Shown piece after piece: positions 6,987 through 21,375 of a stretch of DNA of 64,000 nucleotides. The DNA is from Euzebyella marina. GTDB lineage: Bacteria > Bacteroidota > Bacteroidia > Flavobacteriales > Flavobacteriaceae. Location: contig NZ_JACYFK010000002.1 of the NCBI RefSeq assembly GCF_014855515.1, positions 124,001 through 188,000 of the forward strand, given 5' to 3'. Below the pieces are notes generated by a model that searched no databases, was not told where the DNA came from, and saw nothing but the letters and a program-made list of their open reading frames with translations. A program made the position numbers and the translations under genes. The first letter of the stretch is position 1, and every line of letters begins with the position of its first letter.

Positions 6987-7539
6987 CCAATAGCCATTGC
7001 CTTAATTGGTTAAAAGTATCTTCGGCACCACTAATGACCTCTTTATGGTTTAATGTAGATTCTATTTTTATTACTTGGATCTTGAATTTTGCCCACATTT
7101 TATGGGTATCGTCACCATAAGAGCTAAAATAATTTACGGCATCTGCGCCGTTCATATCTACATTCTTATGAATCATTTTAGAGATAATTTGTCCGCCCAT
7201 AGTAGAACCTTCCATCACGTACAGCACCCCTAGCGCATAGGATAGAGATTTCATGGTCAGTTGGGGCTCGGGTAAGGGCGTCTCTTCTCTATGCTCCAAA
7301 AGCTGCAAATCTTCTACAATGCGAGAAGTGTGTTCACGCTTTGATATATCGGTAATTATTTCTGCATCGATAGTACGGTGCACTTCATCTTCGATGGGTT
7401 TGTAAAAAGAATAAAGTCGTGCAAGAAGCCCAGCATAGTCATCTTTGGTTTTGAGGCTTTTAAGTTCAGAAACTAATACTGTTTCTACCTGCTGGTGATG
7501 GCTCTTGGTTTCTTTTTTAATCGTATCTAAAATCGTCAT
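6955..7539 (-). CDS. biliverdin-producing heme oxygenase (BphO type)
   Basis: A 194-residue all-helical protein of the bacterial heme oxygenase family. It opens heme to biliverdin, CO and iron. The proximal heme ligand is expected to be one of the two histidines in KSHHQQVE near the N-terminus, and the distal helix is YVMEGSTMGGQIIS, matching the family's EGSxxGG motif. It is convergent with, and overlaps by 32 bp, the phytochrome kinase gene, so biliverdin supply and photoreceptor sit together. On the minus strand TACCTTTC (7568-7561) is a likely -7 element giving a leader of roughly 15-20 nt. Confidence 0.92.
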   Translation of the reverse strand: MTILDTIKKETKSHHQQVETVLVSELKSLKTKDDYAGLLARLYSFYKPIEDEVHRTIDAEIITDISKREHTSRIVEDLQLLEHREETPLPEPQLTMKSLSYALGVLYVMEGSTMGGQIISKMIHKNVDMNGADAVNYFSSYGDDTHKMWAKFKIQVIKIESTLNHKEVISGAEDTFNQLRQWLLATKPLESTSV

Positions 7540-7902: not shown

Positions 7903-8811
7903 TTAGCCATTAATACTGTTGCTGCCCACAAGGGTGCGGTTTCTTACATTTTTTAAGGCCATAGTCATTTCAGGTATTACGAGAAAGGGTACATGGGAAG
8001 AGAACACTTCTTTTTCTACCTGTGGTTCAGAGGTGACGACATCCATATAACTGTTCCGGAAATTTAATAATGCCAAAAGGTGAATGTTCAGTTCACGGTT
8101 AAAATGCCGTAAGGTTCTTGAAACCGTGTTGATTTGTGAAATGGTATGAATGTAATGTTCGCGTTCACCAAAGTATTTTCTGAGCATTCCTAGATTAAAC
8201 TGCTCCAATTCGTTCAATGGCCGTAGTTCGTGTTGCAGATGAACGACACGCACGGTAGCTTTAAAGGTATCGACCATTTCTAACAAGGGTGTCAATTCGG
8301 CGCGGGTATAGAATTTATCGAAATTAGTATAGAACGAAATTTCGTTGGGTACTTCAAAAGTAGCATTCGACGGTACGGCCAATATGGGGCAATGGCGAAT
8401 ATACTTCAGAAGTTTGACCGTATTTTTACCCATGAAAACATAGTCTTCGTTTGAAATGCCTTTGGCACCCATTACTATTAGGTCGATTTGCTCTTTTTCG
8501 ACCAGATACCGAACCTCATCGCCGAGTAAGCTGAATGATGAATAGGTCTCAAAATAGTGTCGGGCGTTCGGGTACTCATTTTCAATTTTAGACAATAGAC
8601 TTTTGAGCTGTCTTTCTGAATAGTCGGCAGACGTTTGAACAGAGGAGGCATTTGACTTGTTCTCGGCAATGAAACGAGAACTCACGATAGCGGGGGTGTA
8701 AGTGTTTAAGAGATGAAAAACGCACTCTTCGTTTTGATACAATCGCAATGCATAAAGGGTAGCCAGCCAAGCATTTTCTGAAAAATCGGTAGGTATCAAG
8801 ATTTGTTTCAT
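7903..8811 (-). CDS. universal stress protein with two Usp domains
   Basis: A 302-residue cytoplasmic protein made of two tandem UspA folds. The first domain opens MKQILIPTDFSENAWLATLY and ends with LIVMGAKGISNEDYVFMGKN and CPILAVPSN, matching the family's VMGxxG and CPVLVVP strands; the second half is more divergent and ends VPFLVIPEM. Usp proteins bind ATP or partner proteins during stress and oxygen limitation. It is divergent from the 61-residue gene, with a shared Crp/Fnr-type palindrome placed at the activator position for both promoters, so induction under low oxygen is predicted. This matches Fnr/Anr control of Usp genes in other bacteria. Confidence 0.88.
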   Translation of the reverse strand: MKQILIPTDFSENAWLATLYALRLYQNEECVFHLLNTYTPAIVSSRFIAENKSNASSVQTSADYSERQLKSLLSKIENEYPNARHYFETYSSFSLLGDEVRYLVEKEQIDLIVMGAKGISNEDYVFMGKNTVKLLKYIRHCPILAVPSNATFEVPNEISFYTNFDKFYTRAELTPLLEMVDTFKATVRVVHLQHELRPLNELEQFNLGMLRKYFGEREHYIHTISQINTVSRTLRHFNRELNIHLLALLNFRNSYMDVVTSEPQVEKEVFSSHVPFLVIPEMTMALKNVRNRTLVGSNSING

Positions 8812-8837: not shown

Positions 8838-8911
8838 TAAAGGTAGAAATGTCAGTAGGCTGAATCTATGACATTTATCATCTTTTAAAAGATGGCGTGG
8901 CACAACCTTTG
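8838..8911. promoter_or_regulatory. bidirectional Fnr/Crp-type promoter between usp and the 61-aa gene
   Basis: The palindrome TGAC-ATTT-ATCA occupies 8869-8880 (centre 8874.5). On the plus strand AACCTTTG at 8904-8911 is the -7-like element of the 61-aa gene; on the minus strand TACCTTTA at 8845-8838 is that of usp. In both directions the last -7 base is 36.5 bp from the palindrome centre, placing the site near -41.5 relative to each expected transcription start. This is the geometry of a class II activator site serving two divergent genes. Confidence 0.75.
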
Positions 8912-8965
8912 TCCGGTCAACAATTGGTTGTTTTAAATAGTTTAATCATTAAAATTCATTAGATT

Positions 8966-9151
8966 ATGAAGAATAAACCTGTCAAAGTTTCATTGATTGG
9001 CAAATCGGCCGACAATACCTACCAGATTCAATTTCCTAATCTAAAGGTTCCAGTAAACGTAAATGAAGACCTGTACCGAAGAATGAAACACAGTTCTAGG
9101 TATGAATTTGTCAATTCTGGAATCAACAAGAAGTATAAAAATTATGCTTAA
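8966..9151 (+). CDS. small basic protein of unknown function, predicted low-oxygen induced
   Basis: A 61-residue protein with no signal peptide or membrane segment. It is lysine-rich, with an N-terminal half predicted to form short beta strands (KPVKVSLIGKSADNTYQIQF) and a basic C-terminus (NKKYKNYA). I do not recognise a family. It has its own promoter with a Fnr-type palindrome about 86 bp upstream and lies between usp and the fnr gene, so its expression is probably tied to oxygen limitation. Codon use resembles its neighbours, and the good upstream promoter argues it is real. Confidence 0.75.
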   Translation: MKNKPVKVSLIGKSADNTYQIQFPNLKVPVNVNEDLYRRMKHSSRYEFVNSGINKKYKNYA

Positions 9152-9187
9152 AGTATTGGGGCCGTTTCGGTAATTGTCGGGGCGGCC

Positions 9188-9877
9188 CTAAAAACCTTGT
9201 ACCAGTTCTTGAAGACCCTTTTCGTCGGCAATCTTAATTCGCTTGCCCGATGTTTCTAAATAACCTTTTTTCTTGAATTCTGAAATGATTCGAATACAAG
9301 ATTCAGTGGCCGTTCCTACAACACTTGAGATGTCTTCTCGCGAAAGGGTCAGGGCCAAAAAGCCTTCTTTGTCGACCCCAAAGTTCTGTTGAAGGTATAA
9401 AAAGGCTTCGGCAATTCGTTGCTTTACCGTTTTTTGGCTCATATTCACGATTACGTCATCGGCCTCTTTCAGGTCATGGGCCATATGGCGCAATACCTCA
9501 ACGGCATATTCAGGATTTTTCTGTAACGTATTTAAAATGTTTTCTTTGGGTACAAAGCAGATTTCCATATCGTTGACGGCTACTGCACTTAAATTGGTGT
9601 GTTCGCCGGCAATGACCGAACGCTGACCGATAACCGCACCCTTGGTGGCCAATTTCACTACTTGGTCTTTACCGTTGGTGCTTAGTTTCGAGAGTTTCGA
9701 AACGCCATCGCGAACACAAAACACACCATCCAGTTTTTGTCCCTCTTCAAAAAGAGGTTCCCCTTTTTTTACTTTTTTGAAAACCTTTGCATCAGAAACT
9801 TTTTTAAGTTCCTCTTTGCTCATGGCCCGTAGCGAATTGAATTGCCGTACAATGCAATTTTCACATCTGCTTTCCAT
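9188..9877 (-). CDS. fnr: Crp/Fnr-family transcriptional regulator, probable oxygen sensor
   Basis: A 229-residue regulator with an N-terminal cyclic-nucleotide-binding-like beta-roll (about 25-120), dimerisation helix and C-terminal winged helix. N-terminal Cys5 and Cys8 (CENC) match Cys20 and Cys23 of E. coli Fnr, and Cys107 in DMEICFVP matches Cys122; the position of Fnr Cys29 is Asn14. The recognition helix contains ESCIR, with the Glu and Arg that read the TGA half-site. This suggests an iron-sulfur Fnr with three cysteines plus another ligand. It is divergent from ccoI, and the shared palindrome sits at the activator position for its own promoter as well, implying autoregulation. Specific oxygen sensing is inferred. 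Confidence 0.88.
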   Translation of the reverse strand: MESRCENCIVRQFNSLRAMSKEELKKVSDAKVFKKVKKGEPLFEEGQKLDGVFCVRDGVSKLSKLSTNGKDQVVKLATKGAVIGQRSVIAGEHTNLSAVAVNDMEICFVPKENILNTLQKNPEYAVEVLRHMAHDLKEADDVIVNMSQKTVKQRIAEAFLYLQQNFGVDKEGFLALTLSREDISSVVGTATESCIRIISEFKKKGYLETSGKRIKIADEKGLQELVQGF

Positions 9878-9903
9878 TATTTACTTTTTTATACCTGACC
9901 TTA

Positions 9904-9977
9904 CAAAGGTAACTCCCCTAATTTAGCTAAAACCTGACAAAAATCATATTCCTTCTTTTTTGTTGATCAGAACTTTG
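9904..9977. promoter_or_regulatory. bidirectional Fnr/Crp-type promoter between fnr and ccoI
   Basis: The palindrome TGAC-AAAA-ATCA lies at 9935-9946 (centre 9940.5). On the minus strand TACCTTTG at 9911-9904 is a perfect -7 element for fnr. On the plus strand GAACTTTG ending at 9977 is the -7-like element for ccoI. Each ends exactly 36.5 bp from the palindrome centre. Expected starts lie near 9899 and 9982, giving short leaders of about 22 and 15 nt. Confidence 0.78.
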
Positions 9978-9996
9978 CAGGGTATAAGCAAAGTGT

Positions 9997-12393
9997 ATGA
10001 AAACTGTTGATTGTTACCATTGTGGCAACGACTGTGGTAAATCGTCTCTTCATTACGATGAGAAATGGTTCTGTTGTCATGGGTGTAAGATGGTCTACGA
10101 AATATTTTCTGAGAACGACCTTGGGTATTATTACGAACTTCAGGCGGCTGCCGGTGCCACTCCGTTGGAGCAAGAAGGTAAGTATGACTTTCTAGACCAA
10201 CCGGAAATAGCCGATAAGTTGTTGGAATTCAACGATGGCAACCTACAGATTGTTCAATTGTACATACCTCATATTCATTGCAGCTCATGCATTTGGGTAC
10301 TTGAAAATTTGAATAGACTTCATCAAGGCGTTTCTTCTTGTCAAGTCGACTTTCCCAAGAAATCCGTTAGGGTCACTTTTAACCCAGAAAAATTGAAGTT
10401 GAAGCAATTGGTACAGCTGTTGAACAGAATCGGATACGAACCCCAAATCACTCTGGCCGATATCGAAAAAAGACCTAAGTCAGTCGGTCGAGGTTTGATT
10501 TACAAACTCGGTATTGCCGGTTTTGCATTTGGCAATGTCATGTTCTTGAGTTTCCCCGATTATTTTGATTTAAGTGCGAATAGAGAGGCAGGAGGCGAAT
10601 TTTGGCTTAACGAATACGAATCGCTTTTCAGGTGGATTATGTTCGCGTTCTCTTTGCCGGTAGTATTTTATTCGGCTCGCGATTATTTTACATCTGCCTT
10701 TAAAGGTCTGCGAAGTAGGTTGCTCAATATTGATGTGCCCATCGCTTTGGGAATTCTCGTTCTTTTCATCAGAAGTACCCTTGACATTTCGCTTGATCGG
10801 GGACCAGGTTTTTTTGATTCCCTCACGGGGTTGGTATTTTTTCTTTTGTTGGGGAGGTTTTTTCAGCAGAAAACCTATTCCTTCCTTTCGTTTGAGCGAG
10901 ACTATAAATCGTACTTTCCTATTGCGGTTACAAGGTTGAACGATGCTGAAAACGAAGAAATAGTTCAGGTTTATGATGTGAAGCGTGGCGACCGACTGTT
11001 GATTAGAAATGAGGAATTGATACCTGCGGATGCCATTCTTTTGAAAGGTAACGCCCATATCGATTATAGTTTCGTTACCGGGGAGGCTGAACCGGTCTAT
11101 AAAAAAGTGGGGGAGAAGGTCTTTGCTGGTGGAAAGCAATTAAGCGGAGCCATAGAGGTTGAAATTACAAAGCCCGTATCCCAAAGCTACTTGACCCAGC
11201 TTTGGGGCAATTCTGTATTCGGAAGCGAAAAATCAAGTCGATTTCAAACCCTTACCGATGGCATCGGAAAACGCTTCACCATCGCCGTTCTAGGTATTGC
11301 CTTTCTTGCTTCCCTGTTTTGGTTGGTATATCGACCTGAACTGGCATTAAACGTATTTACGGCGGTATTGATTATCGCTTGCCCGTGTGCCGTAGCCCTA
11401 GCGGCACCTTTCACCTTAGGAAATTTGCTTCGCATTTTTGGTAGAAGAAAATTCTATCTGAAAAATACCCACACGATTGAGCAATTGGCCCAAATCGATA
11501 CAGCTATTTTTGACAAGACCGGAACCATTACTACAGCTGCCAAAACTGTGGCAGCCTACCAAGGTATGCCGCTTACCCCGGAGGAAGAATCTTTGCTCAA
11601 AAGTACCTTGCGTTCTTCGAATCACCCCCTTAGCCGCAGTCTCTATGAAATGTTGTCGCAGCATGATATCATGACCTTAGATGAGTTTGAAGAACATACC
11701 GGAAAGGGAATTTCCGCCCAGGAAGGGGCATCTTCAATGAAAATTGGTTCGGCCCATTATGTAGGTAGAAGTGGAAATGAAGAGGATAATAAGACGTCGG
11801 TACATATTCAATCGAACGATGAGTATAAGGGGCGCTTTGTTTTCAATACCCAATACAGAGACGGTGCTTCAGGGCTGTTTACAGAAATGGCCGATTACAT
11901 GCAGTTGGCCATTCTATCCGGAGATAATGATGGGGAGAAAGCGAGGTTGCAAGAACTATTGCCTTTGACTACACCAATGTTTTTCAATCAAAAACCTGTA
12001 GATAAGCTGCAATTTATTGAAGACCTCCAAAAACATGGAAAAAAAGTTTTGATGGTAGGTGACGGGCTCAACGATGCCGGCGCTTTGGCCCAAGCAAATG
12101 TGGGTTTGGTCATTTCCGAGAATATCAATGTCTTTTCTCCCGCCTGCGATGCCATCTTAGATGCTTCAAAATTCACGAGACTATACGATTATATCAAAGC
12201 TTCCAAAAAGGCCTTGAAGATTATAAAACTCAGCTTTTTGTTGTCTCTCTTCTACAACCTCATCGGACTTTATTTTGCGGTCACAGGCCAACTAGAGCCT
12301 GTCATCGCCGCCATTTTAATGCCTTTAAGTTCTATTAGTATTGTGGCCTTTACCACCATTGCTACCAATATCATCGGGCGCAAGTTGAAATAA
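9997..12393 (+). CDS. ccoI: copper-transporting P-type ATPase of cbb3 oxidase assembly
   Basis: A 798-residue P1B-type ATPase that exports copper for insertion into cbb3 oxidase. The N-terminus has a cysteine-rich metal-binding segment (CYHCGNDC and WFCCHGCKM), followed by a heavy-metal-associated domain with C95-S-S-C98. The transmembrane metal site is C462-P-C464, the phosphorylated Asp is D506 in DKTGT, the P1B signature HP is in SSNHPLS, and the hinge motif is GDGLNDAGAL. Eight membrane helices are expected. The neighbouring ccoS and ccoNO fix the role as CcoI/FixI rather than a general CopA. It is led by the shared Fnr-type promoter. Confidence 0.95.
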   Translation: MKTVDCYHCGNDCGKSSLHYDEKWFCCHGCKMVYEIFSENDLGYYYELQAAAGATPLEQEGKYDFLDQPEIADKLLEFNDGNLQIVQLYIPHIHCSSCIWVLENLNRLHQGVSSCQVDFPKKSVRVTFNPEKLKLKQLVQLLNRIGYEPQITLADIEKRPKSVGRGLIYKLGIAGFAFGNVMFLSFPDYFDLSANREAGGEFWLNEYESLFRWIMFAFSLPVVFYSARDYFTSAFKGLRSRLLNIDVPIALGILVLFIRSTLDISLDRGPGFFDSLTGLVFFLLLGRFFQQKTYSFLSFERDYKSYFPIAVTRLNDAENEEIVQVYDVKRGDRLLIRNEELIPADAILLKGNAHIDYSFVTGEAEPVYKKVGEKVFAGGKQLSGAIEVEITKPVSQSYLTQLWGNSVFGSEKSSRFQTLTDGIGKRFTIAVLGIAFLASLFWLVYRPELALNVFTAVLIIACPCAVALAAPFTLGNLLRIFGRRKFYLKNTHTIEQLAQIDTAIFDKTGTITTAAKTVAAYQGMPLTPEEESLLKSTLRSSNHPLSRSLYEMLSQHDIMTLDEFEEHTGKGISAQEGASSMKIGSAHYVGRSGNEEDNKTSVHIQSNDEYKGRFVFNTQYRDGASGLFTEMADYMQLAILSGDNDGEKARLQELLPLTTPMFFNQKPVDKLQFIEDLQKHGKKVLMVGDGLNDAGALAQANVGLVISENINVFSPACDAILDASKFTRLYDYIKASKKALKIIKLSFLLSLFYNLIGLYFAVTGQLEPVIAAILMPLSSISIVAFTTIATNIIGRKLK

Positions 12394-12403
12394 TTTTAAA
12401 ACC

Positions 12404-12446
12404 TGATGAATATCATATTTAATGGGTTTTACCCACAGTAGTTTTA
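12404..12446 (+). promoter_or_regulatory. Fnr/Crp-type promoter of ccoS-ccoNO operon
   Basis: The palindrome TGAT-GAAT-ATCA is at 12404-12415 (centre 12409.5). TAGTTTTA at 12439-12446 differs from TAnnTTTG by one base and ends 36.5 bp from the palindrome centre, the same spacing as at the other sites. The start would lie near 12451, 14 nt before the ccoS ATG. The oxidase structural genes therefore have a promoter separate from ccoI. Confidence 0.75.
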
Positions 12447-12464
12447 CATCAAATTAAAGAAAGC

Positions 12465-12668
12465 ATGAGTGTCATCTATGTGTTATTGGCCATAAGTATT
12501 ACGGTTGCCATACTATTCTTTTTAGCCTTTATTCTATCGGTTAAAAGTGGGCAGTATGATGACTCATATACGCCCTCGGTGCGAATGCTGTTTGAAGATG
12601 AAGTTGTAAAGCCGGTCTCAAAATCAAAAAGTGAGAAACAAAATAAACCTATCGAACTAAATAAATGA
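12465..12668 (+). CDS. ccoS: cbb3 oxidase assembly protein CcoS
   Basis: A 67-residue protein with one N-terminal membrane helix (MSVIYVLLAISITVAILFFL) followed by SGQYDDSYTPSVRMLFEDE, matching the CcoS family's conserved tail with tyrosines and acidic residues. CcoS is required for incorporation of cofactors into cbb3 oxidase. Its stop overlaps the ccoNO start as ATGA at 12665-12668, so translation is coupled. Confidence 0.92.
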   Translation: MSVIYVLLAISITVAILFFLAFILSVKSGQYDDSYTPSVRMLFEDEVVKPVSKSKSEKQNKPIELNK

Positions 12669-14872
12669 TTATGGAAGTACAGCAATTTTATTATGATAAC
12701 AAGATTGTTAAGAAGTTCCTTTATGCGACCATGGTTTGGGGCATCGTGGGTATGTCGGTTGGTCTCTTATTGGCCTTCATGTTCATGTTCCCCAACCTGA
12801 CGGACGGTATTTCTTGGTTGAGTTTTGGTCGTCTAAGGCCATTACATACCAATGCCGTTATTTTTGCTTTTGTAGGCAATGCTATATTCGCTGGGGTCTA
12901 TTATTCTACCCAGCGTTTGTTAAAGGCCCGAATGTTCAGCGATTTCTTGAGCAATTTTAATTTTTGGGGGTGGCAGGCCATTATTGTGGCAGCAGCCATT
13001 ACCCTACCTTTAGGCTATACTACTTCTAAGGAGTATGCCGAATTAGAATGGCCTATTGATATTGCTATTGCCGTTGTGTGGGTGGCTTTTGGAGCCAACC
13101 TTATAGGTACTTTGTTCAAGAGACGCCAACGCCATTTATATGTTGCCATTTGGTTCTACTTGGCTACATTCGTCACGGTGGCAGTACTACATATTTTTAA
13201 TAGTCTGGAGCTGCCTGTTAGTGCATTAAAAAGTTACTCGGTATATGCCGGGGTTCAAGATGCCTTGGTGCAATGGTGGTATGGCCATAATGCCGTGGCC
13301 TTTTTCTTGACCACACCGTTTTTGGGGCTTATGTACTACTTTATTCCAAAAGCAGCTAATAGGCCTATATACTCATATCGTCTGTCGATAGTACATTTCT
13401 GGTCATTGATCTTTATTTATATATGGGCCGGCCCGCACCACCTTTTGTATTCCTCGCTGCCCGATTGGGCACAGAACCTGGGGGTCGCTTTTTCGGTTAT
13501 GCTTATCGCACCTTCTTGGGGAGGTATGATTAACGGACTTTTGACCTTGCGAGGGGCTTGGGACAAGGTTAGAACCGACCCTGTTTTAAAGTTCATGGTG
13601 GTAGCGATTACCGGATATGGCATGGCCACTTTCGAAGGTCCGATGTTATCCCTTAAAAACGTCAACGCCATTGCTCACTTCAGTGACTGGATTATTGCAC
13701 ACGTACATGTAGGCGCTTTGGCATGGAACGGCTTTCTCACCTTTGGTATGGTGTACTGGTTGGTTCCGAAAATGACCAAGACGCAACTGTATTCAAAAGG
13801 TCTGGCCAACTTTCATTTTTGGATCGGAACCTTAGGTATAGTGCTATACGCCCTGCCTATGTACGTGGCCGGGTTCACCCAAGCTTTGATGTGGAAAGAC
13901 TTTAACCCCGATGGCACCTTGGTTTATGGTAATTTTTTGGAAACCGTAAACGAGATTATGCCCATGTACTGGATGCGAGCCATAGGTGGAAGCTTATACA
14001 TAGTCGGTGCCTGTATAATGATATATAACGTGGTGGTTACCATCAAAAAGGGTAGTAAGGTCGAGGATGAGTTAGCCGAGGCACCTGCTCTTACGAGGGT
14101 GTCTAAACGAAGAACAGCTGGGGAAACCTTACATACCTGGTTGGAACGTAAGCCTATTCAGTTAACCATATTAGCCACTATAGCCATTCTGATTGGTGGC
14201 ATTGTACAGATTGTGCCAACTATTTTGGTGAAATCGAATATTCCGACCATTACGAGTGTAAAACCGTACACTCCATTGGAACTGGAGGGTCGAGATCTTT
14301 ACATACGTGAAGGTTGTGTCGGATGTCACTCTCAAATGATTCGCCCTTTTAGAAGCGAGGTCGAGCGATATGGCGAGTATGCCAAGGCAGGAGAATTTGT
14401 TTATGACCATCCGTTTCTTTGGGGAAGTAAACGTACCGGTCCCGACCTTTTGAGGGTCGGGGGCAAGTATTCCGATAATTGGCACCTCAATCATATGTAC
14501 GACCCCCAAAGTACCTCATCTGGGTCGATTATGCCAGCCTACCAATGGTTGGTGCGAAACGAACATGATCGTAGCGGGGTTCAAGATAAAATGAAGGCCA
14601 TGATTTCACTTGGGGTACCCTATACTGAAGATGATATTAATAATGCCAATTCTTCTATGGAAGCGCAAGCGAAAGGCATTGAAGAAAACCTTTATTCCGA
14701 CCCAGATTTTGCCAAATCATATGAGGCGGATAAAAAGTATGCCAATGACAACGGAGAACCCTTCATTGAAATGAAAGATCGTGAAATAGTAGCCCTTATT
14801 GCCTATTTACAACGATTAGGCACCGACATAAAGGTGAAGGAAACTGAAGAATTACTATCTAAAAACCAATAA
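12665..14872 (+). CDS. ccoNO: cbb3-type cytochrome c oxidase, fused subunits I and II
   Basis: A 735-residue fusion. Residues 1 to about 480 are the CcoN subunit with about 12 membrane helices; conserved stretches include RPLHTNAVIFAF, WYGHNAVAFFLT and IIAHVHVGALAWNG with the histidines for heme b, heme b3 and CuB. Residues about 495-735 are CcoO: one membrane helix, then a periplasmic monoheme cytochrome c domain with C551-V-G-C554-H555. Reduces oxygen to water with high affinity at the inner membrane. The CcoN-CcoO fusion is typical of Bacteroidetes. Start is ATG at 12665 (coupled to ccoS) or the second ATG at 12671; I cannot decide between them. Confidence 0.96.
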   Translation: MIMEVQQFYYDNKIVKKFLYATMVWGIVGMSVGLLLAFMFMFPNLTDGISWLSFGRLRPLHTNAVIFAFVGNAIFAGVYYSTQRLLKARMFSDFLSNFNFWGWQAIIVAAAITLPLGYTTSKEYAELEWPIDIAIAVVWVAFGANLIGTLFKRRQRHLYVAIWFYLATFVTVAVLHIFNSLELPVSALKSYSVYAGVQDALVQWWYGHNAVAFFLTTPFLGLMYYFIPKAANRPIYSYRLSIVHFWSLIFIYIWAGPHHLLYSSLPDWAQNLGVAFSVMLIAPSWGGMINGLLTLRGAWDKVRTDPVLKFMVVAITGYGMATFEGPMLSLKNVNAIAHFSDWIIAHVHVGALAWNGFLTFGMVYWLVPKMTKTQLYSKGLANFHFWIGTLGIVLYALPMYVAGFTQALMWKDFNPDGTLVYGNFLETVNEIMPMYWMRAIGGSLYIVGACIMIYNVVVTIKKGSKVEDELAEAPALTRVSKRRTAGETLHTWLERKPIQLTILATIAILIGGIVQIVPTILVKSNIPTITSVKPYTPLELEGRDLYIREGCVGCHSQMIRPFRSEVERYGEYAKAGEFVYDHPFLWGSKRTGPDLLRVGGKYSDNWHLNHMYDPQSTSSGSIMPAYQWLVRNEHDRSGVQDKMKAMISLGVPYTEDDINNANSSMEAQAKGIEENLYSDPDFAKSYEADKKYANDNGEPFIEMKDREIVALIAYLQRLGTDIKVKETEELLSKNQ

Positions 14873-14874
14873 CC

Positions 14875-15051
14875 ATGTTGAAGTTTGTTAAAGGCCATAT
14901 GGAAAGTATTGAGGGTATTGCCACTTACCCGATGATTTCATTGCTCATATTCTTTGTCTTTTTCGCCTTGCTTTTTTGGTGGGTCTTCACGGCCTCAAAA
15001 AGATACGTACGCGAAATGAGTGAATTACCATTAGATGAAAACAACCAATAA
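14875..15051 (+). CDS. ccoQ: small cbb3 oxidase subunit, CcoQ-like
   Basis: A 58-residue frame beginning 2 bp after the ccoNO stop: MLKFVKGHMESIEGIATYPM, then one membrane helix (ISLLIFFVFFALLFWWVFTA), then a charged tail ending LPLDENNQ. Position between ccoNO and ccoP, single helix and size all fit CcoQ, the small subunit that stabilises the complex. It overlaps in another frame with an upstream ATG sometimes chosen for ccoP, which should therefore start later, at 15062. Confidence 0.88.
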   Translation: MLKFVKGHMESIEGIATYPMISLLIFFVFFALLFWWVFTASKRYVREMSELPLDENNQ

Positions 15052-15061
15052 AAACGGAATT

Positions 15062-15943
15062 ATGAAAAATAATTGGTGGATTAAAATACCGGTTGCCTTC
15101 TTTTTGATTTTGGGTCTCACGGAGTACTTTGTTGATTCTGGTGAAATGCCCGCGTTCTTATCGAACAAGATGGTTCAGGCTTTCTTGGTTTTTGTACTAT
15201 TACTCCTGATAGCCATCGCTTTGATAATCAATGCTATTGAAAATGTAATGTATCAAACACTTTCAGAAGAGGCCAAAGAACGATACCTATTGTCTAAAAA
15301 TACCCAATGGCAGTGGCAATGGGGCAAAAAGACGTATAAAAAGCTTTTGGGCTCAAGGCCGATTGAAGAAGAAAGTGAAATTATTCTCGACCATAATTAT
15401 GATGGTATTCAAGAACTCGATAACAATCTACCACCGTGGTGGGTCTATATGTTCTATGCGACTATCGTCTTCGGTATTATTTATTTGGTCCGCTTTCACA
15501 TTTTTAATGACTATGATCAAGAAGAAGAGTTTTTGACCGAAATGAGTATGGCCGCTAAAGAAGTAGAAGAGTATAAGAAAAACGCCAAAGATTTGGTAGA
15601 TGCCAATACGGTTACCTTATTGACCGATGCCAGTGACCTGAGCGCTGGGAAGGCCATTTTCGAAAGTAATTGTATAGCCTGTCACATGACGGATGGAGGC
15701 GGGGGTATTGGCCCTAACCTGACCGACCGGCACTGGATTCTTGGAGGTGGAATCAAAAATGTCTTTAACACCATTTCTGAAGGGGGTAGAGATGGTAAAG
15801 GTATGATTGCCTGGAAACAGACCCTAAAGCCGGCGGAAATTGCACAAGTGGCCAGTTACGTACTCGGCTTTCAGGGTACGGCCCCCGCTAATCCGAAGGA
15901 TCCTGAAGGCGATATCTGGGATGAACCGGAAAGTGCCGAATAA
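15062..15943 (+). CDS. ccoP: cbb3 oxidase subunit III, monoheme cytochrome c
   Basis: A 293-residue subunit. Two membrane segments lie near the N-terminus (IPVAFFLILGLTEYF and AFLVFVLLLLIAIALIINAI) and a third at PPWWVYMFYATIVFGIIYL, which is the FixP-N signature with LDHNYDGIQELDN before it. A single C-terminal cytochrome c domain has CIACH and the distal methionine in GMIAW. Proteobacterial CcoP carries two hemes; one is usual in Bacteroidetes. An in-frame ATG at 15035 lies inside ccoQ, so I prefer the ATG at 15062, 10 bp after the ccoQ stop. Confidence 0.93.
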   Translation: MKNNWWIKIPVAFFLILGLTEYFVDSGEMPAFLSNKMVQAFLVFVLLLLIAIALIINAIENVMYQTLSEEAKERYLLSKNTQWQWQWGKKTYKKLLGSRPIEEESEIILDHNYDGIQELDNNLPPWWVYMFYATIVFGIIYLVRFHIFNDYDQEEEFLTEMSMAAKEVEEYKKNAKDLVDANTVTLLTDASDLSAGKAIFESNCIACHMTDGGGGIGPNLTDRHWILGGGIKNVFNTISEGGRDGKGMIAWKQTLKPAEIAQVASYVLGFQGTAPANPKDPEGDIWDEPESAE

Positions 15944-15986
15944 TCAAGACTTCAATTATTTTGACCGAAAAGGGTTAGTTAGAACC

Positions 15987-17405
15987 ATGTCTCAAGATCA
16001 AGAACATTTTCGCGATAGTATTGGTACCATCAATGATGAAGGTAAAAGGGCATGGGTATTCCCAAAGAAACCTAGCGGAAAGTTTTACCGATACCGCAAG
16101 TATGTCAGCTATCTGCTACTAACCACATTGGTGGCAGGGCCGTTCTTGAAAATCAATGGTAATCAATTCTTCATGTTCAATGTATTGGAAAGGCGCTTTA
16201 ATATTTTCGGATTTCCGTTTTGGCCCCAAGATTTTCATCTAGTCGTTATTTCAATGATTATCGGGGTCATTTTTGTGGCTCTGTTTACGGTTGCCTACGG
16301 CCGTATTTTCTGTGGATGGATGTGCCCTCAGACTATTTTCATGGAAATGGTCTTTAGAAGAATCGAATATTGGATCGAGGGAGACCGAGGAGCGCAAATA
16401 AAGTTAGACCGTCAACCGTGGAATGCTGAAAAAGTGCAAAAGAGAGTTTTAAAATGGATTCTTTTTTTCATTATCTCCTTTGTGATAGCCAACGTATTCT
16501 TGGCCTATCTAATCGGAAGTGACCGTTTGCTGAGGTATATCTCTGAAGGGCCTTTTGATCATTTGAGCACCATGCTATCCCTCCTAATATTTACAGGTGT
16601 CTTTTACTTTGTTTTCGCTTGGTTTCGCGAGCAGGTCTGCATAATCGCGTGCCCCTATGGGCGTATGCAAGGGGTTCTTCTCGATGAAAAATCGGTAGTG
16701 GTGGCCTATGATCATAAACGTGGTGAGGCTGAAAAAGGGAGAAAGAAATTTAGAAAAAATGAAGATAGAAAGTCTCTAGGTTTTGGTGATTGTATCGATT
16801 GCTTTCAATGTGTTAATGTCTGCCCTACTGGAATTGATATTCGCAACGGTACCCAACTTGAATGTGTGAACTGTACGGCTTGTATTGATGAATGCGATAC
16901 CATTATGGAAAAAGTGAATTTGCCCAAAGGTCTTATTCGCTATGCCAGTGAAGCCAATATTGAAAAAAAAGAAAAGTTCAGGTTTACACCAAGGCTAAAA
17001 GGCTATACGGCGGTATTGACCATTTTAACAGGCATTCTCTTGGGCATGTTGTTCTTGAGAAACGATGTAGAGGCCAACATACTTAGATTGCCAGGTCAGC
17101 TTTACGAGCATAAAGAGAATAATATAATTAGTAATGTCTATACCTATAAACTGGTAAACAAGACGATTGAAGATATCGATAATGTAGGCTTTAAACTAAT
17201 TTCTCATAAAGGAAAAATCAATTTGGTCAGTAATAACAAGTTTACCGTTCCCGCCCAAGATTTGGCCGAAGGTACATTGTTCATTGAAATCGATCAAGCT
17301 GCTATAAAAAGTGATAAGGAAAAAATAAAAATAGGGGTCTATAGTGGTGACCAATTAATAGAAACAACCTCTACCGCCTTTTTAGGCCCTAGAAGTTATA
17401 AATAA
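15987..17405 (+). CDS. ccoG: cbb3 oxidase accessory ferredoxin-like membrane protein
   Basis: A 472-residue membrane protein with about five helices and a cytoplasmic double 4Fe-4S domain (CIDCFQCVNVCPTG and CVNCTACIDECD). The CGWMCPQ motif lies between early helices. CcoG/RdxA-type proteins reduce copper for oxidase assembly. The C-terminal third is a beta-sandwich domain typical of the family. The open frame extends upstream to 15840 through the end of ccoP, but the family N-terminus matches MSQDQEHFRDSIGT at 15987, 43 bp after the ccoP stop. Confidence 0.93.
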   Translation: MSQDQEHFRDSIGTINDEGKRAWVFPKKPSGKFYRYRKYVSYLLLTTLVAGPFLKINGNQFFMFNVLERRFNIFGFPFWPQDFHLVVISMIIGVIFVALFTVAYGRIFCGWMCPQTIFMEMVFRRIEYWIEGDRGAQIKLDRQPWNAEKVQKRVLKWILFFIISFVIANVFLAYLIGSDRLLRYISEGPFDHLSTMLSLLIFTGVFYFVFAWFREQVCIIACPYGRMQGVLLDEKSVVVAYDHKRGEAEKGRKKFRKNEDRKSLGFGDCIDCFQCVNVCPTGIDIRNGTQLECVNCTACIDECDTIMEKVNLPKGLIRYASEANIEKKEKFRFTPRLKGYTAVLTILTGILLGMLFLRNDVEANILRLPGQLYEHKENNIISNVYTYKLVNKTIEDIDNVGFKLISHKGKINLVSNNKFTVPAQDLAEGTLFIEIDQAAIKSDKEKIKIGVYSGDQLIETTSTAFLGPRSYK

Positions 17406-17411
17406 ACAATT

Positions 17412-17855
17412 ATGAAAATCAATTGGGGAACATCGATAGTACTGGCATTTACTGTATTTATTGCCTTTATACTCTTTTTCGTTATTCGAATGAGCGTTGA
17501 CCATCGGGCAGACCATGATTTGGTTACCGAAGAATACTATAGGCACGAACTTGCCTATCAGCATGAAATAGATGCCGAGAAGAATGCCAAGAATGGCAAG
17601 CAACTATCGATTGAAAAAACGGAAGAAGGACTTTTAATAGCCTTCCCAAAAGAAATACATCCTCAAGAAATAAAAGGAAGAGTGTCCCTTTACAGGCCAT
17701 CCGACAAGCATCTGGACTTTGACCTCGATTTACGTCTGTCCAACAATTATTTGCTTATACCTGACAACCGTTTGTTGGGTGGCCGTTGGGACATTAAGGT
17801 ATTCTGGTCTTACGAAGGCCAAGATTATTTACAAAAAGAAAATTTAGTTTATTAA
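17412..17855 (+). CDS. ccoH: FixH/CcoH family protein
   Basis: A 147-residue protein with one N-terminal membrane helix (SIVLAFTVFIAFILFFVI) followed by the family's DHDLVTEEYYRHELAYQ stretch and a periplasmic beta domain. CcoH/FixH proteins assist cbb3 oxidase assembly or stability. It starts 6 bp after ccoG and ends 1 bp before the next gene. Confidence 0.92.
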   Translation: MKINWGTSIVLAFTVFIAFILFFVIRMSVDHRADHDLVTEEYYRHELAYQHEIDAEKNAKNGKQLSIEKTEEGLLIAFPKEIHPQEIKGRVSLYRPSDKHLDFDLDLRLSNNYLLIPDNRLLGGRWDIKVFWSYEGQDYLQKENLVY

Positions 17856-17856
17856 A

Positions 17857-18564
17857 ATGCTCTATTCGGCTATCATTTTAGGGTTAATGGGCAGTTTGCA
17901 CTGCATCGGTATGTGCGGCCCCATAGCCTTTATGTTGCCAGTTGATAGAAATAAAGGTCTGAAGAGGCTTTTGCAAATAGCGATTTATCATGTGGGGCGT
18001 CTTTTATCCTACGGTCTTTTGGGGTTACTGTTTGGTTGGTTAGGAAGAGGACTTTACGTTTTTGGCTTACAGCAAAAACTATCGATCGCTACAGGTTTGC
18101 TAATGATTCTTTTGGTATTGCTTCCTTCAAAAATCTTAGACAAGTATAGTTTATCAAAACCGATATATAGGTCGATTTCCAAAATAAAATCACGATTGGG
18201 CAAAGAATTGAAAAAGAAAACACCGGATACTTTTTTGACCATTGGGTTTTTAAACGGGTTATTGCCCTGCGGCCTTGTTTACATGTCATTATTTGCTTCG
18301 ATAGCTATGGGAAACCCCGGTCAAGGAGCCTTGTACATGGTTCTGTTTGGCTTGGGCACCGTACCTTTAATGACCGGAGTAGTTTATTTTAGCGGGTTGA
18401 TAAGAGGAGAGCGTAGATTGAAAGTTCAAAAATTGATTCCCGTATTTGTGATTTTAGTAGCTTGTCTTTTCATTCTTCGAGGTCTTGGTTTGGGCATACC
18501 CTACGTTTCTCCTGCACCGGTACATCAAATAGCCGCCACTTCTACCATAGAGTGCCATAATTGA
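17857..18564 (+). CDS. TauE/SafE-like (UreH-type) membrane protein of the cco cluster
   Basis: A 235-residue protein with about six membrane helices. The N-terminal motif GSLHCIGMCGP and the later GFLNGLLPCGLVYMSL are hallmarks of the UreH/TauE-like subgroup related to the DsbD membrane domain, with paired cysteines (HCIGMC and PCG). It is the last gene of the cco operon, one base after ccoH. In Bacteroidetes this family regularly ends cco clusters, suggesting a part in metal or thiol handling during oxidase maturation; transport of sulfite is not implied. Confidence 0.85.
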   Translation: MLYSAIILGLMGSLHCIGMCGPIAFMLPVDRNKGLKRLLQIAIYHVGRLLSYGLLGLLFGWLGRGLYVFGLQQKLSIATGLLMILLVLLPSKILDKYSLSKPIYRSISKIKSRLGKELKKKTPDTFLTIGFLNGLLPCGLVYMSLFASIAMGNPGQGALYMVLFGLGTVPLMTGVVYFSGLIRGERRLKVQKLIPVFVILVACLFILRGLGLGIPYVSPAPVHQIAATSTIECHN

Positions 18565-18623
18565 TTCAAATTTAAGTTGGTGCCTATTGTGGATTAAAAG
18601 GTAACTTAAGGCTTCATTTCAAT

Positions 18624-18631
18624 TATCTTTG
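18624..18631 (+). promoter_or_regulatory. -7 promoter element of the GNAT gene
   Basis: TATCTTTG, perfect TAnnTTTG. The expected start near 18636 gives a leader of about 30 nt before the ATG at 18667. No Fnr-type palindrome sits at the activator distance here, so this gene seems outside the low-oxygen group. Confidence 0.6.
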
Positions 18632-18666
18632 CATTTTTTCTACCAAAGCATAGATACAATTTGATA

Positions 18667-19353
18667 ATGATAGCTTTAGAGAAACAACTCAAAAACCCTG
18701 TTTGGCATTCCTTAAATGAAACCCACAAAAAATTTGCGGTTGAAATAAACGGGGTACGTTTTTACAACCCTGAAGTTTGCCCTTTTGGTTCTTTTGAAGA
18801 TGTGGGGAAAACTGTTGTAGCTTCCAATGAATATGTAAAAGGAACCGATGAATTTTTCTATGTTTCTGAAAATCAAATTCCTTTGGTAGACGATACGAAA
18901 GTAGCGCTCGTTAAAAAAATAGACGGTTGCCAGATGGTACTGAACCAATTGGCAAATGTTGAAATCACGGAGAAAATCTTTCCCCTGGCAAAAGAAATGA
19001 TGGATGAGATCTATGATTTGGTTTGGATGGTGATGCCGGGCTATTACAGAAAAAGAACCTATGAAATGGGTAAGTACTTCGGTATTTTCAGAGATGGTAA
19101 ATTGGTGTCAGTTACCGGGCAGCGTATGCAGACCGATCAATTTATTGAAGTAAGCGCCGTAGTAACCCACCCCAATTATACCCGACAGGGCTTAGCGAAG
19201 CAATTGATCGCTCATACGACCAAGGAGATTCTAAAAGACGGAAAAACCCCGATTTTACATACGAACAAGGGCAATTTGGCTATTTCATTATATGAAAAAT
19301 TAGGTTTTGAACTAACGAGGGACATGAACTGGTGGTTGTATCGAAAATTATAA
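18667..19353 (+). CDS. GNAT-family N-acetyltransferase
   Basis: A 228-residue protein whose C-terminal half is a GNAT acetyltransferase fold: VSAVVTHPNYTRQGLAKQLI is the strand 4 and acetyl-CoA pyrophosphate loop (variant of RxxGxG/A), followed by LHTNKGNLAISLYEKLGFEL, the typical motif B. The N-terminal half resembles no domain I know and may bind the substrate. Start at ATG 18667 rather than the in-frame TTG two codons upstream. Substrate unknown. Confidence 0.82.
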   Translation: MIALEKQLKNPVWHSLNETHKKFAVEINGVRFYNPEVCPFGSFEDVGKTVVASNEYVKGTDEFFYVSENQIPLVDDTKVALVKKIDGCQMVLNQLANVEITEKIFPLAKEMMDEIYDLVWMVMPGYYRKRTYEMGKYFGIFRDGKLVSVTGQRMQTDQFIEVSAVVTHPNYTRQGLAKQLIAHTTKEILKDGKTPILHTNKGNLAISLYEKLGFELTRDMNWWLYRKL

Positions 19354-19413
19354 ATTAAAACCATTTGTAAGCACTCCACTTTAAGAACCAGTAGCCCCGT
19401 GTAAATAAAATAC

Positions 19414-19872
19414 TTATTCCTTCCCTCTGTATTTTCCAGTGATATCTGTTATGCGGATGATGTAGACAATTGGAGGTTCTGCACCGGTGAGTTTGCTCGA
19501 GAAATCACTTATAAATTTTGCTTCCCCATTCTTTTTTTGATTGATGACCATTTTGACACCTTCGGAAAACTTATGAAGGTATTTTTTGGCATCACTTCCT
19601 TTTAATTCTTCAAATTTGCCCTGTATCAACACAGACTGCCAATGTTGCACATCTTTAATATCGTCTACTTGAAGCGAAACCGAAGGAAAACGCCTCATAG
19701 ATTCTATTTTATGACCCACGTAGGAGTAACTGATGATACACTTATCTTCTGCATCATGAAAATAAGTGATGGGTATAACGCAAGGGCTCTTTCCGGAAAT
19801 AAAGCCCAATCGCCCGATATAGTTGTCGCCAAGTAGTTCAAGGCAGCCTGATATTTCTAAATTTTCAATCAT
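19414..19872 (-). CDS. pyridoxamine 5'-phosphate oxidase-like flavin-binding protein
   Basis: A 152-residue split-barrel protein of the PNPOx-like/NimA group: GRLGFISGKSPCVIPITYFH, then IISYSYVGHKIESMRRFPSVSLQVD and the strand SVLIQGKFEEL. Such proteins bind FMN or heme; the reaction is unknown. It lies 92 bp downstream of hemN on the same strand, so it may be the second gene of the Fnr-controlled hemN transcript. No separate -7 element was found in the gap. Confidence 0.85.
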   Translation of the reverse strand: MIENLEISGCLELLGDNYIGRLGFISGKSPCVIPITYFHDAEDKCIISYSYVGHKIESMRRFPSVSLQVDDIKDVQHWQSVLIQGKFEELKGSDAKKYLHKFSEGVKMVINQKKNGEAKFISDFSSKLTGAEPPIVYIIRITDITGKYRGKE

Positions 19873-19964
19873 CTCTTTTACTTTTTAATTTACGGAATAT
19901 TTCAAATCGGATATTTCTGTTTTTCTATTCTATTTAAAAATGTTGGTCGAACGTGTTTGCCAAC

Positions 19965-21317
19965 TTATACCGTCATCGAAAATAGGCGATTGGTAGGTTT
20001 GTCTCTTTGTAAATAAAGGTCAAATGCCATACACACATTTCTGACATAGGGTCGACCTTTTTCTGTTATAACAATTCTATTTTTCCCAATATTGACCAAT
20101 CCATCTTTTTCCATTTCTTCTAACTTTTGGGCGGCGGGTTGCATCAATCCGTTATCTTCCCTGGTCCAGCTGGTTTCTAAGCGACACATTAGGTTCAAGA
20201 TATGTTGGCGAATGCTTTGGTCTTCATCCGTTAATATGTGACCACGAAATATGGGGATTACCTCATTATCGACCAAGTGTTGATACTCTTCAATGCTCTT
20301 GACATTTTGAGCAAAACCGTACCAACTATCACTAATACTTGATACGCCAAGGCCTATCATTAACTGGGTCGTGGCATCGGTATACCCCATGAAATTACGA
20401 TGTAAAGAACCACTTTTAACCGATTGATAAAGACTGTCGCTGGGTAGAGCAAAATGATCCATGCCTATTTCATAATAGCCATGTTGTTGTAAAAGCGACT
20501 TACCCACCTCGTATTGTTCACGTTTTTCATCGGCAGTAGGTAAATCTTCCTCTTTATAGCCTCGTTGACCATTACCCTTAAGCCAAGGGGTGTGGGCATA
20601 GCTGTAAAATGCCAAACGGTCGGGCCTAAGCAAGTTAGTTTTATTGACTGTTTCAATAACATCATTTTTTGATTGATGTGGTAGGCCAAAAATAATATCG
20701 TGACCGATAGACGTGTAACCGATTTGTCTGGCCCATTCGGTAACCCGTTTTACATTTTCAAAAGGTTGAATGCGATGAATGGCTCTCTGAACTTTCAGGT
20801 TATAATCTTGAACGCCAAAACTGACCCTTCTAAAACCTAGTTCAAAAAGGGTTTCTAATTGTTCGTAGGTAGTATTGTTGGGGTGGCCTTCAAAGCTGAA
20901 TTCATAATCTATTGCTTTGTGTGCTTTACGAAAGATTCCTTTGACGAGCATTTGTAAATTTTCAGAAGAAAAAAATGTGGGGGTGCCACCACCCAGATGT
21001 AATTGTTTAATGATGGGTTTCTTACCAAATAGATTACAATAAAGTTGCCACTCTTTTAAAACGGATTGAATATAGGGTACTTCAACTTCATGCCTTTTGG
21101 TTATTCGCTTATGGCATCCGCAGAAAGTACATAGGCTTTCGCAGAATGGTAAATGTATATACAGGCTTATACCTTCTTCACTACTTTCTTTAAAGCTCTG
21201 TTGTACCGAAAGGTTCCACTTTTTACCTGAAAATTCTTTTATATTCCAAAAGGGTACGGTTGGGTAACTCGTGTAACGGGGCCCCGCTACATTATATTTT
21301 TGAATAAGTTGGCACAT
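19965..21317 (-). CDS. hemN: oxygen-independent coproporphyrinogen III dehydrogenase
   Basis: A 450-residue radical SAM enzyme converting coproporphyrinogen III to protoporphyrinogen IX without oxygen. The iron-sulfur motif CESLCTFCGC follows YIHLPF, and HLGGGTPTFFS is the family's SAM-binding segment. N-terminal YNVAGPRYTSYPTVPFW is the true HemN signature, separating it from the HemW group. It is preceded by a Fnr-type promoter, fitting heme synthesis for cbb3 oxidase at low oxygen. The leader is about 11 nt. Confidence 0.95.
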   Translation of the reverse strand: MCQLIQKYNVAGPRYTSYPTVPFWNIKEFSGKKWNLSVQQSFKESSEEGISLYIHLPFCESLCTFCGCHKRITKRHEVEVPYIQSVLKEWQLYCNLFGKKPIIKQLHLGGGTPTFFSSENLQMLVKGIFRKAHKAIDYEFSFEGHPNNTTYEQLETLFELGFRRVSFGVQDYNLKVQRAIHRIQPFENVKRVTEWARQIGYTSIGHDIIFGLPHQSKNDVIETVNKTNLLRPDRLAFYSYAHTPWLKGNGQRGYKEEDLPTADEKREQYEVGKSLLQQHGYYEIGMDHFALPSDSLYQSVKSGSLHRNFMGYTDATTQLMIGLGVSSISDSWYGFAQNVKSIEEYQHLVDNEVIPIFRGHILTDEDQSIRQHILNLMCRLETSWTREDNGLMQPAAQKLEEMEKDGLVNIGKNRIVITEKGRPYVRNVCMAFDLYLQRDKPTNRLFSMTV

Positions 21318-21332
21318 ATGAACGTTTTAGGG

Positions 21333-21375
21333 CAAACTTAAATGTATCGGTATCTAAAAAATATGACAAATGTCA
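21333..21375 (-). promoter_or_regulatory. Fnr/Crp-type promoter of hemN
   Basis: The palindrome TGAC-AAAT-GTCA, a perfect inverted repeat of its half-sites, lies at 21364-21375 (centre 21369.5). On the minus strand TAAGTTTG at 21340-21333 is a perfect TAnnTTTG element whose last base is 36.5 bp from the centre, as at the other Fnr-type sites in the window. Confidence 0.8.

Follow-up and report, generated by a model that had tools for sequence, protein, structure and literature searches.

Euzebyella marina carries a gene for a Crp/Fnr-family regulator, here called fnr, among genes for a cbb3-type oxidase, haem synthesis and a Usp protein. It lies in a 64,000-nucleotide stretch of contig NZ_JACYFK010000002.1, the whole of which is referred to here as the window. 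The locus raises the question whether this regulator controls its neighbours, and whether the control can be read from the DNA. The promoters of these genes possess palindromes at one fixed distance from the -7 box. Judged from sequence, the neighbouring Fnr-type protein very probably acts on the cbb3 oxidase, haem and Usp genes directly, as a class II activator.

One spacing between palindromes and promoter boxes

A preliminary description of this DNA had placed four TGAY-N4-RTCA palindromes between genes and had derived from them six promoters with a single spacing. All four were found at the claimed coordinates and all are intergenic. The gap is measured from the palindrome end to the box start, and a gap of 23 equals 36.5 bp from the palindrome centre to the last box base. 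The box score is the number of matching letters out of 6 in TAnnTTTG. The elements are as follows.

8838..8845, minus strand: -7 box of usp, TACCTTTA, gap 23
8869..8880: palindrome TGACATTTATCA, assigned to usp (minus) and, as a doubtful case, to a 61-amino-acid (aa) gene (plus)
8904..8911, plus strand: -7-like box of the 61-aa gene, AACCTTTG, gap 23, a weak case
9904..9911, minus strand: -7 box of fnr, TACCTTTG, gap 23
9935..9946: palindrome TGACAAAAATCA, common to the divergent fnr and ccoI promoters
9970..9977, plus strand: -7 box of ccoI, GAACTTTG, gap 23, first base non-consensus
12404..12415: palindrome TGATGAATATCA of the ccoS-ccoN genes
12439..12446, plus strand: -7 box of ccoS, TAGTTTTA, gap 23
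21333..21340, minus strand: -7 box of hemN, TAAGTTTG, gap 23
21364..21375: palindrome TGACAAATGTCA of hemN

The boxes of usp, the 61-aa gene, fnr, ccoI, ccoS and hemN score 5/6 or 6/6 at gap 23, as had been claimed. At the same gap the remaining two directions of the four palindromes score 0/6 (12404, minus) and 2/6 (21364, plus), and the four further palindromes of the window (1939, 6731, 15508 and 42456) score 0-4/6. The agreement had been called unlikely by chance, and this was borne out when the flanks of the four palindromes were shuffled 20,000 times with dinucleotides preserved: gap 23 is common to six of the eight real flanks, while the maximum at any gap among the shuffles was 4, in 2 of the 20,000. 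Abundance of the palindrome alone was rejected as evidence. It is about two-fold above expectation both in the window (8 against 3.97 expected, with 4 of 100 shuffles reaching 8) and in the genome (341 against 172 for the reversed pattern). Among the six boxes that of the 61-aa gene is the weakest, and its conservation is poor.

The whole genome (4.67 Mb, 8 contigs) was scanned for TGAYN4RTCA followed at gap 23 by NANNTTTR. The scan gave 9 matches against 1 for the reversed-pattern control, representing the six of the window and three more. A search for the palindrome, N{10,40} and TANNTTTG gave 17 matches, of which 4 have gap 23, and the reversed control gave 5. Two of the three additional sites, C3:366753 and C3:380004 (loci L012 and L013), are intergenic with exact gap 23 and are situated upstream of HYC_CC_PP family genes. 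Their distances to the start codon, 112 and 86 nt, exceed the 27-nt median of the target survey described below, and they are taken as possible targets only. A copper link to cbb3 assembly is possible for them. One of these genes is near an AraC-HMA regulator and the other near what is, by eye, a CusA-like pump. The third site, C1:1546404 (L130), was set aside as probably due to chance; it falls within an open frame of 330 codons, and not all of its four central letters are A or T.

The preliminary description had assigned the palindromes to the class II activator position. In Flavobacterium psychrophilum, the sigma-A box TAnnTTTG was located at -12 to -5 from mapped transcription starts (PMC9723704). 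Because the last box base is thus at -5, the 36.5 bp between palindrome centre and box end put the centre at -41.5, in keeping with the predicted geometry. The T at -12, which is the first box base, is 29.5 bp from the palindrome centre. Class II promoters of E. coli have the same register from centre to T, and their -10 hexamer likewise starts at -12. The site extends past 12 bp, with an A-run at about -53 to -50 mirrored by a T-run at -33 to -30. These runs are clearest at ccoS and ccoI; usp keeps the distal run only. In two genera counted by eye (G321 and G306), no second peak of the class I kind was found over gaps 22-45; gap 23 accounted for 26/35 and 19/31 of the matches and the remainder was scattered.

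In the explanation favoured here, the Crp/Fnr-type protein encoded at 9188-9877 would be a low-oxygen activator. Its dimer would bind TGAY-N4-RTCA centred at -41.5, contact RNA polymerase in class II fashion and turn on the cbb3 assembly and structural genes, hemN, usp and its own gene. Oxygen would be sensed through four invariant cysteines, perhaps by means of an iron-sulphur cluster. With such promoters, class II activation could be tested directly for a sigma factor whose box is TAnnTTTG. The genes concerned are listed below.

7903..8811, minus strand: usp, Usp protein of 302 aa (Pfam Usp, E 1.7e-11)
8966..9151, plus strand: open reading frame (ORF) of 61 aa, no family match
9188..9877, minus strand: fnr, Crp/Fnr-family regulator of 229 aa (Pfam cNMP_binding, HTH_Crp_2)
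9997..12393, plus strand: ccoI-type copper P-type ATPase gene, 798 aa (Pfam E1-E2_ATPase, HMA, ATPase-cat_bd)
12465..12668, plus strand: ccoS (Pfam FixS, E 2.8e-18; TIGR00847 above cut-off)
12665..14872, plus strand: ccoN/O-type cbb3 oxidase subunit gene, an ORF named by eye
19965..21317, minus strand: hemN, oxygen-independent coproporphyrinogen III oxidase, 450 aa (TIGR00538, 426.3 bits, cut-off 324.95)

The ORF at 9997..12393 is presumed to be ccoI on the basis of its position. Downstream of the ccoN/O-type gene, up to 17855, are ORFs which we take, by eye, to be ccoQ-, ccoP-, ccoG- and ccoH-like. The ORFs from the ccoN/O-type to the ccoH-like gene have counterparts in the same order in relatives. 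Just upstream of the region (window 4740-7539) are two slightly overlapping ORFs on opposite strands, presumably, by eye, a phytochrome-like kinase and a haem-oxygenase-like protein.

Conservation of the spacing and the ccoI box

Conservation was analysed in the loci of 80 named relatives, whose regulators are 76-88% identical to that of the window. Gene order is mostly kept in them, and some loci end at contig ends. Among named bacteria, the regulators most similar to it come from Cytophaga sp. FL35, Euzebyella, Pseudozobellia and Allomuricauda, and next from Maribacter and Flagellimonas. Geometry was counted as conserved where an exact palindrome within 300 bp was followed at gap 23 by a box scoring 5/6 or more, and loci without a detected gene or gene start were excluded from the per-gene counts. 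It is kept at usp in 78/79 loci, at ccoI in 77/78, at ccoS in 75/75 and at fnr in 66/80, where the palindrome itself is present in 72/80. The last base of the usp box is A in 76 of 78 relatives. No match to hemN was found within the 80 named loci; its geometry is present in all five other genera fetched, which were chosen among site-rich ones. Relatives of the 61-aa gene occur in 9 of the 80 loci and keep the geometry (at least 5/6) in 3 of these 9. At the gap-23 place, TTTG is found in 6/9 and the TA half of the box in 0/9. Comparison thus lends strong support to the proposed membership of usp, fnr, ccoI, ccoS and hemN, and that of the 61-aa gene is doubtful. Over all 80 loci (1.55 Mb), there are 320 cases of a palindrome followed by NANNTTTR at gap 23, 3 cases at gap 22 and one at gap 24; any other gap between 5 and 45 has at most 20 such matches.

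The spacing is also widespread in the family. A scan of 119 genera for TGAYWWWWRTCA with NANNTTTR at gap 23, in which the strict W4 pattern misses the window's own ccoS site, gave 1,578 matches against 65 with the reversed pattern, and 110 of the genera have at least one. The nine gaps 13-21 together gave 772 matches, or 86 per gap (reversed control 506), and gap 23 is about 18 times commoner than another gap. The claim that the regulon can be predicted genome-wide is supported by this excess together with the nine sites in the own genome. With so strict a spacing, the regulon can be read off the DNA of about a hundred genera. Across the phylum a match was found in 126/296 genomes, with high counts mainly, though not solely, in Flavobacteriaceae. 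Three members of other families of the phylum (G642, G515 and G447) have 19, 14 and 8 gap-23 sites, hinting that the code may reach beyond the family.

The close relation of the 80 named loci could suggest that the spacing is a functionless by-product of inherited promoters. However, the letters of the spacer vary while its length is constant, and unrelated genes in other genera have the same spacing, with the family-wide excess given above. Moreover, the spacing falls near chance in genera without either of the two regulators described below (0-1 sites in 13/14). The by-product explanation is scarcely credible.

The ccoI promoter keeps the spacing together with a defect in the box. On the ccoI side of 135 loci the palindrome is found in 132, with a gap-23 box of at least 4/6 in 131 of these (the window's own locus among them) and at least 5/6 in 124. 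In the 131 loci the first box base is C in 80, G in 31, A in 20 and T in none, with at least 25 changes on a quick tree of the 135 regulators. In the one locus with another spacing, L030, the gap is 22 and the box matches the consensus in full. In the named loci with boxes of at least 4/6 at gap 23, the first base is T at fnr (69/69), ccoS (75/75) and usp (78/78). That it is never T at ccoI, unlike at these promoters, points to selection against the consensus -12 base at ccoI. Most simply, the non-consensus base probably keeps this promoter activator-dependent or weak. If this holds, the base at -12 would clearly mark a promoter that selection keeps imperfect.

Predicted targets were surveyed in 100 stretches with 115 sites from five site-rich genera. 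These included all sites listed for G321, G306, G400 and G381 and 14 of the 15 listed for G347, the fifteenth being kept out of the counts. Target clusters were named from a scan of one representative each. With the nine sites of the own genome included, an ORF of at least 45 aa starts within 300 bp at 123 of 124 sites, at a median distance of 27 nt. The targets usp, ccoS/N and hemN recur in all five genera and the own genome, ccoI in four genera and the own genome, and a cluster of CBS-domain proteins in five. Found in two to four genera are TonB-like, thioredoxin-like, YceI, S30AE (ribosome hibernation type) and MlaE proteins, as well as PPDK, pyruvate formate lyase-like, molybdopterin oxidoreductase, Pta and CitMHS; 40 target groups are confined to a single genus. 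The predicted set looks like low-oxygen and resting-cell genes. In F. psychrophilum under oxygen limitation, PMC9723704 reports that the cbb3 oxidase is strongly up-regulated and that haem-synthesis enzymes also rise.

The regulator and a second candidate reader

The protein encoded at 9188-9877 belongs to the Crp/Fnr superfamily (PF00027, E 2.6e-17; PF13545, E 2.8e-15; both above the gathering score). Its recognition helix reads GTATESCIR. Helix residues E192, I195 and R196 are identical in 110/110 proteins, the window's regulator included, and the same is true of Cys 5, 8, 54 and 107. Cys 5, 8 and 107 align with cysteines of a solved FNR (9qlt), where the position of Cys54 is Ala. It is plausible that the regulator holds an iron-sulphur cluster with one moved ligand. 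The best structure match of the regulator, 2gau (E 4.5e-23), starts at residue 21, past the CxxC. Elsewhere in the own genome two weak Crp/Fnr relatives (E <= 0.001) were found, 25% and 19% identical to it. A distinct Crp/Fnr protein of 252 aa, with CNLCTNTKC near the N-terminus and the helix TTEEQVIR, occurs at L260 (G375), and weaker second Crp/Fnr matches of similar length occur in other genera.

An orthologue of the regulator is present in 79 of the 119 genera (E <= 1e-44). With E 1e-30 as the limit there are 82; three of these, at 31-33% identity, were not accepted, and second, weaker Crp/Fnr matches (31-34% identical) were kept out of the counts. Ten site-rich genera without orthologue all have a weaker Crp/Fnr relative, in each case including at least one fusion of a receiver domain with a CRP-type part. 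The fusions are about 350 aa long, and Pfam found Response_reg, cNMP_binding and HTH_Crp_2 in the three scanned. Nine genera are site-less. Seven of them have no Crp/Fnr relative at E <= 0.001; of the other two, one has a relative that is not a fusion and the other a fragment. The fusion is present in 59/119 genera (E <= 1e-50), and the own genome has no match at this threshold.

Site numbers follow the presence of these regulators. The median is 0 with neither regulator (n=14; nine genera with zero, four with one and one with 8), 9.5 with Fnr only (n=46), 12 with the fusion only (n=26, range 4-26) and 20 with both (n=33). At least one site is found in all 105 genera with either regulator, and the counts with neither and with any regulator differ at a Mann-Whitney P of 5.6e-9, uncorrected for kinship. 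The same sites occur in genera that lack this Fnr and have the fusion, so the code does not belong to Fnr alone. No difference was clear by eye between site logos from Fnr-only, fusion-only and both-regulator genera (36, 23 and 56 sites).

In all six fetched neighbourhoods of the fusion (L302-L307) the order is PAS kinase, fusion and usp, the kinase and usp being named by sequence, and usp has a gap-23 site. A small gene near the kinase, which we take to be TerB-like, has its own gap-23 site in 5/6 of them. The PAS domain of one kinase, that of L306, matched FixL (1d06, E 1.2e-15) best. At the presumed place of the haem-ligating His of FixL, His is found in 18/18 loci, 14 of them distinct; the search pattern itself required His, and no locus was left unmatched. 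We infer that in relatives a FixL-like oxygen sensor may act on the same promoters through the fusion. More broadly, Flavobacteriaceae could have one code with two interchangeable sensors, a cysteine-type Fnr and a FixL-like haem kinase phosphorylating a FixJ- and FixK-like fusion, exchanged or combined over kept promoters, with the ccoI -12 defect held by selection. We give this wider proposal an even chance. If two sensors share one code, nature would here provide an example of one sensor taking the place of another while the network beneath it is conserved.

The same data bear on whether the sites are read mainly by another Crp/Fnr protein, in many genera the fusion driven by the FixL-like kinase. 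The site numbers of the 26 fusion-only genera and the higher median where both regulators occur agree with this, as do the similar recognition helices, IATESLIR in most fusions seen and TATESxIR in Fnr. However, the own genome possesses no fusion match, only the two weak Crp/Fnr relatives, and the fnr gene is situated amid its targets here and in relatives. A different main reader is therefore improbable.

Several observations weigh against direct activation by the Fnr-type protein. In the 9qlt alignment the next N-terminal FNR cysteine is Asn14 in the window's regulator, which also misses the NCBIfam cut-offs for Fnr (NF008365, 98.7 of 228 bits) and FnrL (NF045989, 72.8 of 300). Its AlphaFold model, with a mean predicted local distance difference test score (pLDDT) of 66.7 and a predicted template modelling score (pTM) of 0.43, is too weak for cysteine geometry. 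Of the 115 sites from other genera, 15 are inside open frames of at least 150 codons and may be due to chance. Four genera (G309, G314, G327 and G388) have the orthologue but 1-2 sites, near the chance level of 0.5-0.7 per genome; G397 has neither regulator yet 8 sites; and genera are non-independent samples. Lastly, gap 23 is not general on the fnr side. It is found in 80/135 loci, whereas 29 have a box scoring 5/6 or more at gap 8-11; the remaining 26 have another gap (11), no box (3) or no palindrome (12). The quick tree requires at least 4 changes between gap 23 and gap 8-11. A gap of 8-11 puts the centre at about -26.5 to -29.5. A protein bound there would lie over the promoter and block it, and the positive loop at fnr would hence seem to be negative elsewhere.

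Those 29 loci are what one would expect if the sites repress, or both repress and activate, for example by covering promoter elements. As a general account this is highly improbable. The palindromes of ccoI, ccoS, usp and hemN are centred at -41.5, and the gap-23 box of ccoI is never consensus (0/131), as expected for activator-dependent promoters. The rise of cbb3 and haem genes at low oxygen in F. psychrophilum (PMC9723704) also speaks against repression.

Comparison with known systems

No Fnr motif or regulon described for flavobacteria was found in the literature surveyed, in which RegPrecise and most subscription papers were not searched. The same holds for the flavobacterial variant itself, its strict spacing, the imperfect ccoI box, the apparent change in autoregulation and the probable second sensor. 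PMC8510549, on another organism, assigns Flavobacteriales CRP/FNR homologues to MalR-like carbon sensing, unlike the present reading; PMC9239204 concerns Campylobacterota. Class II activation by an Fnr-type protein is itself a mechanism of a known kind.

The Crp/Fnr proteins of the same phylum nearest in structure are those of Porphyromonas gingivalis, presumably the source of 2gau. 2gau, HcpR and CrpPg belong to the same superfamily as the regulator. They differ from it in that haem is reported as the ligand of HcpR and in that the 2gau match begins after the CxxC of the window's regulator.

Likeness to FNR of E. coli and A. fischeri (structure entries 5cvr, 5e44 and 9qlt) is found in both protein and promoter. 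The regulator shares the Crp/Fnr domains, the N-terminal CxxC and a later Cys in register, and its sites share the palindromic TGA/TCA half-sites, the centre at -41.5 (here predicted) and low-oxygen targets. Unlike FNR, the flavobacterial system has the core TGAY-N4-RTCA without a fixed outer T and the box TAnnTTTG, and its regulator fails the NCBIfam cut-offs. The regulator also has Asn14 for the third N-terminal Cys, a new invariant Cys54, and Ile in the recognition helix where FNR has Ser.

In rhizobia, a FixL-FixJ-FixK cascade is found (FixL structures 1d06 and 1dp6). Similarly, in relatives of the window's locus a kinase with a FixL-like PAS domain adjoins a receiver protein that would act on cbb3 genes. 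This protein combines the receiver with the CRP-type part in a single chain, and would thus do the work of both FixJ and FixK.

FixK, Anr and FnrL control cbb3 oxidase genes and hemN in Proteobacteria. The flavobacterial regulon resembles theirs in having the same kind of targets under a predicted Fnr-family regulator. It differs in belonging to another phylum, in its other sigma-A box, and in the single fixed spacing at nearly all promoters examined.

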